A stretch of DNA of 64,000 nt. Origin: Ignavibacteria bacterium (lineage in GTDB: Bacteria; Bacteroidota; Ignavibacteria; Kapaibacteriales; Kapaibacteriaceae). Position 1 is the first letter of the stretch; every line of letters begins with the position of its first letter. Positions 47,055 to 51,016 of this stretch are shown piece after piece. Location: NCBI GenBank assembly GCA_015709655.1, contig CP054181.1, positions 1,043,262 to 1,107,261 on the forward strand, written 5' to 3'. The position numbers and the translations under genes are program-made. The notes under the pieces were generated by a model. The model was not told where the DNA came from and did not search any database. It saw only the letters and a list, made by a program, of their open reading frames with translations.

Positions 47055-49010
47055 TTAAATAAACGGCAGTATTACCAAGGTCATCAGCAGAAGGATACCC
47101 ACGAACATTACAAGTGCATAATTCTGAACTACACCATCCTGAACACGGCGGAGCGCAGATGCACAGCCCCCTACCACCTTGGCAGACCCATTAACAATTC
47201 CGTCAATGATTATTACATCAAAGAATTTCCACAGCAGGTCTCTGGACATTGCCACTACCGGACCAATGACTGCAGCCTGATATACTTCGTCCACATACCA
47301 TTTGTTCCAAAGGACTTTGTAAACGCCACCCAGTTTCCTGCCCAGCTCGCGAGCCTTATCAAGGCCATTGGCATACAGTGCCCGAGCCATAAGGATACCG
47401 GAGACGGCAAGAACTACCGAGACGCCCATCAGAAGCCAGGCAGTAGTATCACTGGCAGGTGCATGAACGGGCAGCAGGCTCATACCGGGTTCAACAATCG
47501 GGTGTAGCCATGATTCGAGCAGGTTTGGGAAATGCAGCAGGTGGCCAATAACGTGCGGAACGCCCAGGAAGCCGCCAAAGGCCGAAAGTACAGCCAGGAT
47601 AATCAGTGGCACCGTCATCGTTGCAGGTGATTCGTGCGGATGCACATGGTGATGGTCGAAGCGCTCCTCTCCGTGGAACGTTAGCGCCGTCAGCCTCCAC
47701 ATGTAGAATGCCGTGATCAGGGCAGCCACTGCACCCAGGCCCCACAGCCATGGACTTCCATTTACAAAGGCAAACCACAGTATCTCATCTTTCGAAAAGA
47801 AGCCGGCAAAGATGGGAATACCTGCGATAGCAAACGTTCCCACAAGCCAGGTGCGATAGGTTGTAGGCATATACTTGGCCAATCCGCCCATCTTTTGGAT
47901 GTTCTGCTCTTCGTGCATACCGTGAATAACCGAACCCGACCCAAGGAAGAGCAGGGCTTTAAAGAATGCATGGGTCATTACATGAAAGACGCCGGCAACA
48001 AAGGCACCCACACCAAGAGCCGTAAACATAAATCCAAGCTGTGATACGGTAGAATATGCCAAGACCTTTTTTATATCGTTCTGAACCAGACCAATGGTAC
48101 CGGCAATAAAGGCAGTTGCAATACCAATACCTGCTACTACTGCCATGGTTGTTGGCGCCATTGCAAACAGTACATTGGCACGAGCAATCAGGAAAATTCC
48201 CGACGTAACCATTGTTGCAGCGTGGATAAGAGCCGAAACCGGCGTAGGACCCGCCATGGCGTCCGGCAGCCACACACCCAGCGGAATCTGGGCGCTCTTG
48301 CCGGTACAACCAAGGAATAAAAACATGGTGATAAACGTTACAACCGAGCCGCCGGCAACAAGCACCGAAGGCGCCGCCGCCATGACTTCGGTGTAATTCA
48401 GCGTTCCGAAGACATTAAAAATCGTGAACATTGCAACCAGAACGCCAAAGTCGCCAATCCGGTTGGCAATAAAGGCTTTCATGGCAGCGTCACCGGTCCA
48501 CTTAATATTGGTTCCTTCAAATTCCCTGTCGTACCAGAACCCAATCAGCAGGTACGATGCAAGGCCCACCCCTTCCCAGCCCAGGAAGGTGAGCAGGAAG
48601 TTGTCGGCCAGAACCAGGTTAAGCATCATAAACACAAACAGGTTCAGATACGCAAAAAAGCGTGCGTACCCTTTGTCGCCGTGCATATACCCCATGGAAT
48701 ACACATGGATTAAGAAGCCAACGCCGGTAATAATCAGTGAGAACAATATCGAAAGCGGGTCAATAAGGTATGCAATGTTTACCGAAAATGAACCTGTTGC
48801 AATCCAGGTATACAGCGTTGTCACTGATGACCTTTCGACAACCGGTTTACCCAGCATTTCGATGAACAAGGTGCAGGTGACAATGAATGACAGGAGAATG
48901 GCTCCGCTGCCAATAATGCCTATCAGCTTTTCACTTTTTAGTTTTTTACTAAACAACCCGATGATAACAAAGCCAACCAACGGGAAAAGAGTAATAAGTG
49001 CCGGGCTCAT
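47055..49010 (-). CDS. nuoL: NADH-quinone oxidoreductase subunit L-like antiporter subunit
   Basis: 651 residues, polytopic with about 16 transmembrane helices. Recognisable NuoL core: DPLSILFSLIITGVGFLIHVYSMGYM, FVFMMLNLVLADNFLLTFLGWEGVGLASYLLIGFWY (Glu in GWEGVGLASY), PVSALIHAATMVTSGIFLIAR and KKVLAYSTVSQLGFM with the conserved Lys. The C-terminal helix extension typical of NuoL is present. It should pump protons as part of complex I. No other nuo genes are in this window; downstream is a lipoprotein and upstream a class II amidotransferase, with which it shares an ATGA overlap. Confidence 0.92.
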   Translation of the reverse strand: MSPALITLFPLVGFVIIGLFSKKLKSEKLIGIIGSGAILLSFIVTCTLFIEMLGKPVVERSSVTTLYTWIATGSFSVNIAYLIDPLSILFSLIITGVGFLIHVYSMGYMHGDKGYARFFAYLNLFVFMMLNLVLADNFLLTFLGWEGVGLASYLLIGFWYDREFEGTNIKWTGDAAMKAFIANRIGDFGVLVAMFTIFNVFGTLNYTEVMAAAPSVLVAGGSVVTFITMFLFLGCTGKSAQIPLGVWLPDAMAGPTPVSALIHAATMVTSGIFLIARANVLFAMAPTTMAVVAGIGIATAFIAGTIGLVQNDIKKVLAYSTVSQLGFMFTALGVGAFVAGVFHVMTHAFFKALLFLGSGSVIHGMHEEQNIQKMGGLAKYMPTTYRTWLVGTFAIAGIPIFAGFFSKDEILWFAFVNGSPWLWGLGAVAALITAFYMWRLTALTFHGEERFDHHHVHPHESPATMTVPLIILAVLSAFGGFLGVPHVIGHLLHFPNLLESWLHPIVEPGMSLLPVHAPASDTTAWLLMGVSVVLAVSGILMARALYANGLDKARELGRKLGGVYKVLWNKWYVDEVYQAAVIGPVVAMSRDLLWKFFDVIIIDGIVNGSAKVVGGCASALRRVQDGVVQNYALVMFVGILLLMTLVILPFI

Positions 49011-49915
49011 CCAATCTCCGGAGCTATTGATGTAAAGTCTAGTGATTCGATATCCATCTGAACGTTGCGGAACGTTATCCGCATTGTCTCGTCGATTACC
49101 ATCATTGAATTCCGTTCTACCTTCATCCAGTCAGATCTGCGAGCCGTGAACGGTTCGCTGGCAACAACAATGGCGCTGGGAATTCCAAAGGTGGGTTCCA
49201 TAACGCAGGTTTCGCCCCGACAGTGATACTCGTGGCCGTGCATGTAGTACAACGATGCCGGCTGAACATTGGGGTTCGTTGTGTACCGAACGGCAATCAG
49301 GCTGGTACCATTTGTTACTGCCAAATTTAAGTAGCTGTGCTGACGTACCTCTTCTTCCAGGAGCAGTTTGTTAAGATCCTGAAACATCCCCTCCATTGCC
49401 TGTATCATCTGTTCACATGTTACCGTACCGTGCGGTTCGGGCAAATGATTTAAAAACAGACCAAAGAGGTGCTCACTGTCGGTTGATCCCTGGATGGCAT
49501 CGTAGGCTTCGTCTGACAGTTTCCTGAGCAGTTTCCTACGGATCTGCTTATAGCCCCCTAACACTCCGTTATGCATGAACATCAGCTGGCCACACCAAAA
49601 CGGGTGCGAGTTAACCTCTTCGATGGTCAGGCCGGGCGAGGCAGCCCGGATGTGGGCAAACATGCAGGGCGAATAGACCTTTCTGGCCAGATTGCGCAGA
49701 TTGTGATCGCCCCAGGCCGGTTTAATGCTTCTGAATACGCACGGCTCACTGTCAAGCTCTGGTGCGTACCAGCCCAGGCCAAAGCCATCACCATTGACCG
49801 AGACCGACATTTCGCCGGCATTAATACTTTGGGCGGTTACCAGCGAAAACCTCGGTTTATACAACAGATCGTCTGCGAGTATCGGTGGGCCAATGTATGC
49901 GATAAATCTGCACAT
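49007..49915 (-). CDS. Class II glutamine amidotransferase (EgtC/YafJ-like)
   Basis: 302 residues beginning MCRFIAYIG, so Cys2 is the N-terminal nucleophile after Met removal. Other motifs are NGDGFGLGWYAP, FAHIRAASPG (Arg for glutamine carboxylate), NSHPFWCGQLMFMHNG (Asn-Gly oxyanion hole) and STDSEHLFGLFL. The family releases ammonia from glutamine or hydrolyses gamma-glutamyl amides (EgtC); the partner is unknown. It lies 12 bases after the CADD-like gene and overlaps nuoL by 4 bases. No ergothioneine genes are seen nearby. Confidence 0.87.
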   Translation of the reverse strand: MCRFIAYIGPPILADDLLYKPRFSLVTAQSINAGEMSVSVNGDGFGLGWYAPELDSEPCVFRSIKPAWGDHNLRNLARKVYSPCMFAHIRAASPGLTIEEVNSHPFWCGQLMFMHNGVLGGYKQIRRKLLRKLSDEAYDAIQGSTDSEHLFGLFLNHLPEPHGTVTCEQMIQAMEGMFQDLNKLLLEEEVRQHSYLNLAVTNGTSLIAVRYTTNPNVQPASLYYMHGHEYHCRGETCVMEPTFGIPSAIVVASEPFTARRSDWMKVERNSMMVIDETMRITFRNVQMDIESLDFTSIAPEIG

Positions 49916-49927
49916 AACCGTGAATTT

Positions 49928-50620
49928 TTACTGAATCGCCACCGTTTCGGAGCACCAGGTATTGTACACTCCGTCGAGCAGCAGGTTAAAGGCATCGGCC
50001 GCTTCACGCGCTGAATCCAGTGCGGTCTGCTTTTGTTCCGTTGTTTGACAGAACTTCACCAGTGCCTCCCTGGTTACAGTACGGTGAATTTCATCGGCAT
50101 GCTCGTGTACTTCAAAGAAGCCTAAGGCCTGCGGTGTGTTCATGTTATACCAGTTTTTCAGACCGGCAATTTTGGTGGTGCTGATTTCAGGGATTTGTGA
50201 CTCGTAGGCATAGAGAGCAGCAAGCCCTTCGGCCGGGTTGTTGCGGCGGGCAAGTTCCTTGAGGATACGTACCGATGCACGGGTATGCGACAAGTATTTC
50301 CGCTGTTTGATCTGGTCCCGTGTAACACCCAGAGCTTCGGCAAACCTGATCCACAACTCCGGGTGGTTGTTCGGACCGTTTTCTTCTTCGTACAAATTTT
50401 CAAGCAGCATCTGCCGAATTTCCATGTCGTCGCAGTTAGCATGAGTAGCACTTACGTACGTTGGAAAGGCATGCACCTGGTGGTAATACTCCAGGGCATA
50501 CTCGCGGAGCATGTCCAGCGACAGCGCGCCTTCGTTCCACATCTGGTAAAACGGATGCTGAAGCATGTGCCGTTCAGCAATAATACTGTCAAGTTCGTCT
50601 AGAAATTCTTGTGTTGTCAT
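49928..50620 (-). CDS. CADD-family haem-oxygenase-fold protein, probable non-canonical pABA synthase
   Basis: 230 residues. The sequence follows the chlamydial protein CADD (CT610) closely: HMLQHPFYQMW (Tyr25 aligns with the self-sacrificing Tyr27), YALEYYHQVHAFPTYVSATH, CDDMEIRQMLLENLYEEENG, LYAYESQIPEI and a Lys in STTKIAGL that matches the second required residue, then EVHEHADEIH with the metal-binding His/Glu. CADD-like enzymes make p-aminobenzoate for folate by cleaving their own Tyr in a di-metal oxygenase reaction and replace PabABC. It is transcribed from the divergent promoter shared with clpS and heads the amidotransferase-nuoL cluster. Confidence 0.85.
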   Translation of the reverse strand: MTTQEFLDELDSIIAERHMLQHPFYQMWNEGALSLDMLREYALEYYHQVHAFPTYVSATHANCDDMEIRQMLLENLYEEENGPNNHPELWIRFAEALGVTRDQIKQRKYLSHTRASVRILKELARRNNPAEGLAALYAYESQIPEISTTKIAGLKNWYNMNTPQALGFFEVHEHADEIHRTVTREALVKFCQTTEQKQTALDSAREAADAFNLLLDGVYNTWCSETVAIQ

Positions 50621-50700: not shown

Positions 50701-50731
50701 AATCCCAGTTGGTTTGTACTCCAGTCCGATT

Positions 50732-51016
50732 ATGCCGTATTTCCCTACCGAACATACCGATACCCTGCTTGCCGAGGATACCGTAACGGGGTTACAGTCA
50801 CACGTGATTTTATATAATGACGATGAGCATACGATTGAAGAAGTTGTTGTTCAAATTGTGCTTGCCACCGGATATTCTTTCCCGTATGCAATGAAGCTGA
50901 CGATGGCGGTGCATACGTCCGGGAAGGAAACCGTGTTTACGGGGACAATTTCTGACTGTTTGCGGGTTGCATCGGTGTTGCAGGAAATTCAGCTGCAAAC
51001 CGAGATCGTATTCTAA
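50732..51016 (+). CDS. clpS: ATP-dependent Clp protease adaptor ClpS
   Basis: 94 residues. HVILYNDDEHTIEEVVVQIV is the N-degron binding strand and helix (Asn-Asp-Asp), and YAMKLTMAVHTSGKETVFTG contains the conserved Met and His that contact the N-terminal residue of substrates. ClpS delivers N-end-rule substrates to ClpAP or ClpCP. The unstructured N-terminus is short. It ends 3 bases before the convergent TPR lipoprotein gene, so the 3' ends nearly touch. Confidence 0.93.
   Translation: MPYFPTEHTDTLLAEDTVTGLQSHVILYNDDEHTIEEVVVQIVLATGYSFPYAMKLTMAVHTSGKETVFTGTISDCLRVASVLQEIQLQTEIVF

Follow-up and report, generated by a model that had tools for sequence, protein, structure and literature searches.

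Two enzymes that make p-aminobenzoate (pABA) from their own residues are the closest described systems for the present locus: CADD (CT610) of Chlamydia trachomatis (PDB 1rcw and 8va9) and NePabS (NE1434) of Nitrosomonas europaea (PDB 9pj4). As described in PMC11965152, Tyr25 and Lys159 of NePabS form a sacrificial pair, in which the former donates the ring and the latter the amine, the metal ligands are three histidines and three carboxylates, Tyr41 is essential, and variants of Tyr45 and Trp99 lose activity. NePabS is active alone in vitro, its lysine being converted into aminoadipate, and as cited in the same paper the gene of this relative outside the Chlamydiae rescued an E. coli pabABC mutant; homologues are also mentioned in Wolbachia, Rickettsia, Chloroflexi and Sphingomonas (PMC11965152). 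The two enzymes differ in metal preference: CADD, with Tyr141 and Tyr170, prefers Mn/Fe, whereas NePabS, with Phe148 and Phe177, prefers Fe/Fe. The F148Y variant of NePabS showed similar activity with Fe/Fe and Mn/Fe, the F177Y variant was switched to Mn/Fe, and changing the same residues in CADD gave cambialism and no full switch in the work of Phan et al., as reported in PMC11965152.

The window analysed here is a whole stretch of 64,000 nucleotides of Ignavibacteria bacterium DNA (contig CP054181.1), and on its minus strand lies an intact ORF with an ATG start, encoding 230 amino acids, whose bounds were exact in the preliminary description. This gene, its neighbours and the codons of four key residues are located as follows:

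49928..50620, minus strand: probable gene of a CADD-type self-sacrificing pABA synthase, 230 aa (ORF, TIGR04305, structure and residue matches)
49007..49915, minus strand: class-II glutamine amidotransferase-like protein, EgtC-like (188.8 bits, below the EgtC cut-off of 218.65)
47055..49010, minus strand: NuoL-type proton-pumping subunit, with a 4-base overlap with the amidotransferase gene
50714..51016, plus strand: ClpS-like adaptor, divergent neighbour (PF02617, 41.7 bits)
50546..50548, minus strand: codon of Tyr25, equivalent of the sacrificial Tyr27 of CADD and Tyr25 of NePabS (phmmer alignment; Y in 98/98 rows)
50171..50173, minus strand: codon of Lys150, equivalent of the amine donor Lys152 of CADD and Lys159 of NePabS (phmmer alignment; K in 98/98 rows)
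50204..50206, minus strand: codon of Tyr139, metal-choice position (CADD Tyr141, NePabS Phe148; Y in 98/98 rows, seed-biased; role as given in PMC11965152)
50117..50119, minus strand: codon of Phe168, second metal-choice position (CADD Tyr170, NePabS Phe177; F in 85 and Y in 13 of 98 rows)

The encoded protein scored 285.4 bits (E = 2.4e-85) against NCBIfam TIGR04305, for which the curated cut-off is 200 and which is named 'CADD family putative folate metabolism protein'; it is a member of this family with no weighty difference. In phmmer searches it matched CADD (1rcw, E = 1.2e-48) and the 4-aminobenzoate synthases 8va9 (E = 3.9e-48) and 9pj4 (E = 9.3e-48, full length), and the next match was PqqC-type at E = 3.1e-15. 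An AlphaFold model built from a 41-row alignment (mean pLDDT 95.9, pTM 0.90) was searched with Foldseek, and CADD crystals ranked first, with an rmsd of 1.4-1.5 Å, a TM of 0.95 by target length and 38-39% identity. The CADD-type identity proposed in the preliminary description was thus confirmed by profile score and by structural comparison of the predicted model; the resemblance is far beyond chance, but to call it near line-by-line was generous at this level of identity. Its occurrence outside the Chlamydiae also holds but is not new, given the characterised NePabS and the further homologues mentioned in PMC11965152. We regard the window gene as a well-supported member of the CADD/PabS group, a kind already known, also outside Chlamydiae, and beyond membership the points of interest are its genomic setting, its metal-choice state and its compact relatives. 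The CADD loci of Kapaibacteria are 69-83% identical to the window protein; the closest named ones (81-83%) include Candidatus Kapaibacterium and Ignavibacteria MAGs, and the single closest named locus comes from a MAG titled Bradyrhizobiaceae, a label that we take to be wrong.

HDO enzymes have a common fold, and structures of PqqC, BesC and UndA were matched by the predicted model as well. The window protein might then belong to a different pathway, as a PqqC-like or other oxidase of the HDO type, in an organism that imports pABA or folate, and the fact that no folate gene was seen adjoining CADD in Kapaibacteria loci would fit such a role. We consider this very improbable: in the NCBIfam profile search the PqqC, BesC and TenA models were far under their cut-offs (72.1 bits against 240 for the PqqC model TIGR02111), whereas TIGR04305 was well over; in the PqqC row of the phmmer alignment Y25, Y41 and K150 are replaced by H, W and R, so that the sacrificial Tyr and Lys are both missing; and the exclusion between CADD and PF00425 enzymes described below is not expected of an unrelated enzyme.

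Residues were compared over 98 rows, comprising the window and 97 loci; the gene of the window recurs among them as L076, and the named and other genome sets may overlap. The 67 named-genome rows were collected with seed peptides that included YESQIPEI and are biased towards Y139, while the 30 profile-found loci (L070-L099) are free of this bias. Y25, Y41, K150, Y139, E140, H172, D176 and H179 were identical in all rows, and E79, H86, Y45 and W90 in 97 rows, with an X in the remaining one. Hence the tyrosine, lysine and metal ligands picked out from the letters at the outset are present, the ligands being kept in 97-98 rows, and the key Tyr is missing from no row of the alignment. E79, H86, E140, H172, D176 and H179 would supply the three histidines and three carboxylates of a dimetal site, as judged from sequence, where we assume that the corresponding CADD residues, and hence their window equivalents, are the six ligands. 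Window Y41, Y45 and W90 align with Y41, Y45 and W99 of NePabS. The protein thus shares with CADD the fold (in the predicted model), the six ligands, the sacrificial Tyr/Lys pair and a Tyr at the 141 position, but has Phe where CADD has Tyr170; with NePabS it shares Tyr25, Tyr41, Tyr45 and the Lys, but it is without the 9-residue insertion of NePabS and has Tyr139 where that enzyme has Phe148.

With a probability of about 0.9, we read the window gene as encoding a heme-oxygenase-fold dimetal oxidase that turns its own residues into pABA, each protein molecule acting once. If it works as CADD and NePabS do, O2 would meet the reduced dimetal site and a radical would pass via aromatic residues to Tyr25, the C-alpha/C-beta bond of which would be cleaved to leave Gly; the freed ring would be oxidised, oxygen from O2 entering the carboxylate that forms, Lys150 would supply the amine, and the resulting pABA would go to dihydropteroate synthase (DHPS). 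We infer both the chemistry of the window enzyme and its role as the sole pABA source of the cell.

At the metal-choice positions, 85 of the 98 rows had the Tyr/Phe pair (YF) and 13 had Tyr/Tyr (YY), with 67 rows biased towards Y139; by record title, the YY rows include 6 Chlamydiae and 5 Verrucomicrobiota. The Tyr139/Phe168 pair of the window is the state of the NePabS F148Y variant, that is, the cambialistic one as described in PMC11965152. Hence the Kapaibacteria enzymes, including that of the window, are predicted to accept Fe/Fe or Mn/Fe, by extension from single mutants of a different enzyme.

On the minus strand, a gap of 12 bases separates the pABA synthase gene from the amidotransferase gene that follows it. 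The amidotransferase is the same-strand next gene in 44 of 97 CADD loci, all close relatives of the window, to which tblastn adds one more (L070), and families f1 and f2 of the order retain it immediately after CADD; it was not at this place in L028, L033-L037, the f3 loci and the distant loci, some loci ending at contig ends. The NuoL gene is second after CADD in 39 loci and is probably on the same transcript as the gene preceding it. This arrangement raises the alternative that the amidotransferase is a working partner that supplies or recycles the amine, such that the reaction in vivo would not be strictly self-sacrificing at Lys150, and besides the linkage and the short spacing the protein begins with Met-Cys, presumably as class-II amidotransferases do. 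However, no amidotransferase relative adjoins CADD in more distant loci, and NuoL is equally linked to CADD, so that the linkage may be plain synteny. Moreover, NePabS needs no partner in vitro, where aminoadipate is formed from its own Lys (PMC11965152). We therefore find a partnership quite unlikely, and retain Lys150 as the putative amine donor. The ClpS-like gene also adjoins CADD in many of the closest loci and probably has no functional tie to the pABA synthase. By tblastn with one FolE and two DHPS proteins as queries, no folate genes were found beside Kapaibacteria CADD, whereas a FolE relative and a DHPS relative adjoin CADD in the Chlamydia-like locus L061, and chlamydial CADD is encoded in a folate cluster (PMC11965152).

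The genome of the window organism is a single contig of 2,841,677 bases, scored 100% complete, and a search of it for pabABC found no complete set. PF00425, which covers PabB, TrpE and other chorismate-binding enzymes, had no match in it, while all 14 control genomes were positive. No PabA was found over cut-off, and the two TIGR00566 matches, both under cut-off, were rejected as CarA and GuaA; two aminotransferase-IV matches were rejected as PabC, both being branched-chain transaminases. The early guess that this organism is likely to lack pabA, pabB and pabC was therefore supported and can be put more strongly, as chorismate synthase (AroC) also had no match. For EPSP synthase (AroA) there was one match of 63.5 bits, presumably MurA, against a cut-off of 287.25 that was exceeded in 14/14 controls. 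Because AroC is unmatched and AroA is not over cut-off, chorismate itself seems not to be made, and we infer auxotrophy for tryptophan, phenylalanine and tyrosine, with the aromatic amino acids coming from outside. The genome shows no other known pABA route, and it combines this absence of pabABC with two DHPS proteins over cut-off, of which one is a normal FolP (L068) and the other Sul3-like (L069).

The second DHPS (C1:1006757-1007527; L069, L177) is related to Sul3 at 351.5 bits, below the Sul3 cut-off of 475, and as a Sul3-like protein it was rejected as a source of pABA. Its stretch has about 31-40% GC, compared with 50% for the window, and is flanked by parts of GmrSD-type restriction genes; horizontal acquisition of a Sul-like enzyme is the probable explanation. 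The genome encodes a complex-I-type NuoL although it has no AroC match. Quinone precursors normally derive from chorismate, and hence would need another source here. An open-access literature search found no paper on the shikimate pathway of Kapaibacter/OPB56, nothing on folate or aminobenzoate in the passages checked from the Kapabacteria auxotrophy literature, and, among the matches listed, no title on CADD without a shikimate pathway.

The protein could also be a degenerate relative or one of alternative function that makes no pABA in this organism, in line with the second role, in apoptosis, reported for chlamydial CADD (PMC11965152). This is extremely unlikely in view of the full retention of the catalytic residues, the conservation over the Kapaibacteria loci (69-83% identity) and a genome that is without a PF00425 enzyme, and we keep to pABA synthesis as the function.

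We then compared 149 genomes of the class. TIGR04305 was over cut-off in 46 of them (50 matched at E 0.001), PF00425 was present in 94, DHPS in 139 and AroC in 100 (99 over cut-off). CADD over cut-off and PF00425 occurred together in 4 genomes, CADD only in 42, PF00425 only in 90 and neither in 13 (Fisher 6e-21, ignoring the relatedness of the genomes). Put in terms of folate synthesis, of the 51 genomes that have DHPS but are without PF00425, 41 carry CADD, compared with 3 of the 88 that have both DHPS and PF00425. For CADD and AroC the corresponding counts were 14 with both, 32 with CADD only, 86 with AroC only and 17 with neither; thus AroC is missing in 32 of the 46 CADD genomes, and its retention in 14 means that CADD needs no loss of the shikimate route. 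The four double carriers are G115, G136, G143 and G146, and two CADD genomes (G087, G143) had no DHPS match. G143 itself carries CADD and two PF00425 matches in addition to having no DHPS match. Ten genomes have DHPS without PF00425 and without CADD over cut-off. In seven DHPS-positive genomes (G008, G053, G081, G090, G094, G122, G127) PF00425 and, at E 0.001, TIGR04305 are both unmatched, which must reflect import of pABA, genes that were missed (G094 being 67% complete) or a further route.

The G010 family, whose 13 genomes are also counted within the class sample, contains 9 genomes with CADD and without PF00425, 3 with PF00425 and without CADD, and 1 with neither (G094). The three PF00425 carriers (G030, G040, G050) share their genus, g23, with four CADD carriers. 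In G050 (L110) the PF00425 protein scored 435.8 bits against a cut-off of 275 for the aminodeoxychorismate synthase component I equivalog, a TIGR00566 amidotransferase over cut-off adjoins its gene, and at the PabC position lies a 197-aa ORF with no NCBIfam match at E 1e-8, which would be PabC by its place. The same three-gene arrangement is found in G040 (L109), and G030 carries PabA and PabB relatives. Outside g23 the family has CADD in its remaining genera, G094 (67% complete) excepted, so that part of g23 has probably regained its pab genes. Replacement of CADD in place was rejected as a candidate, as no flanking ORFs are common to the pab loci L114 and L115 and the CADD loci L116 and L117. 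As to mobile elements, stretches of viral contigs with the seed patterns (two peptide patterns per query) encode no relative. Plasmid records matched the window protein in 68 cases, all at <60% identity, and the 20 of these that were listed are annotated, where annotated, as PqqC or iron-containing redox enzyme; a plasmid search with a compact protein (below) gave no match.

Three of the 13 genomes with neither enzyme (G064, G091, G147), all DHPS-positive, have TIGR04305 matches below cut-off. Their proteins are compact (184-185 aa) and keep the sacrificial Tyr, the equivalents of Y41 and Y45, and the Lys; the probability that 3 of 3 such carriers fall within these 13 of 149 genomes is 5e-4, ignoring relatedness. 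With 75.2, 73.2 and 95.9 bits against the cut-off of 200 they are not filed as members of the family. A profile made from these three proteins and run on 391 class genomes matched 22 genomes in five families at 183 bits or more, the next match having 84.5 bits; no listed genome has two matches to it, and thus none was seen to carry a compact form alongside a CADD form. All 22 proteins share the six candidate ligands, W72, the Lys, F109 and Y137, and the sacrificial Tyr is present in 20, the other two rows being without that N-terminal part. The ligand set appears rearranged, with the putative motifs E-x2-H and H-x2-E-x2-H, and over the 20 full rows identity falls to 34%, with 31 invariant columns. 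In a tree of 74 rows (50 of the 98 CADD rows, with L171 counted among them, 20 of the 22 compact proteins and 3 outgroup rows) the compact rows form one group with support of 100/99 on a long branch, and CADD plus compact rows split from the outgroup with 82/89, where the tool warns of long branches. A further 212-aa divergent relative in G182 (L171:8000-8638:+) scores 85 bits with the compact profile and has a long branch in the tree; it keeps the sacrificial Tyr and the Lys and has Val at the position of CADD Tyr141.

By its sequence features, this compact sister clade of CADD is a candidate for a second lineage of enzymes that make pABA self-sacrificingly. G064, G091 and G147 are the 3 of 22 compact carriers with known status, being DHPS-positive, PF00425-negative and without CADD over cut-off. 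Genus mates of two other carriers, G286 (G049, G093, G145) and G350 (G013), have two or three PF00425 matches, so that these two carriers may well have PabB. A folE gene was near the compact gene in G064 only (1 of 22, with flanks of up to 8 kb that were often ended by contig ends). The combinations at the metal-choice positions are YY in the chlamydial enzyme, FF in Nitrosomonas, YF in the window and FY in the compact clade. Tentatively, and at somewhat less than even odds, we propose that self-sacrificing pABA synthesis is broader than CADD and includes the compact clade, that together with CADD it lets lineages such as that of the window's organism make folate without chorismate, and that YY, FF, YF and FY are natural settings of metal preference; our confidence in this proposal is lowered by the PF00425 enzymes in the genus mates of two compact carriers.

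These observations describe a bacterium, probably environmental, whose 2.8-Mb genome is apparently without the chorismate branch and which yet keeps folate synthesis at the price of one protein per pABA. It seems that CADD can stand in for PabAB-type genes and vice versa, even among members of a single genus. Thus the question of why a single-use enzyme is retained, which may lie in the uncoupling of folate from the shikimate pathway, becomes testable, and so does the question of what sets metal choice, for which YF and FY are natural variants. Should the compact proteins prove active, the features common to two very divergent clades would show the minimum needed for cleavage of the Tyr and transfer of the Lys amine.
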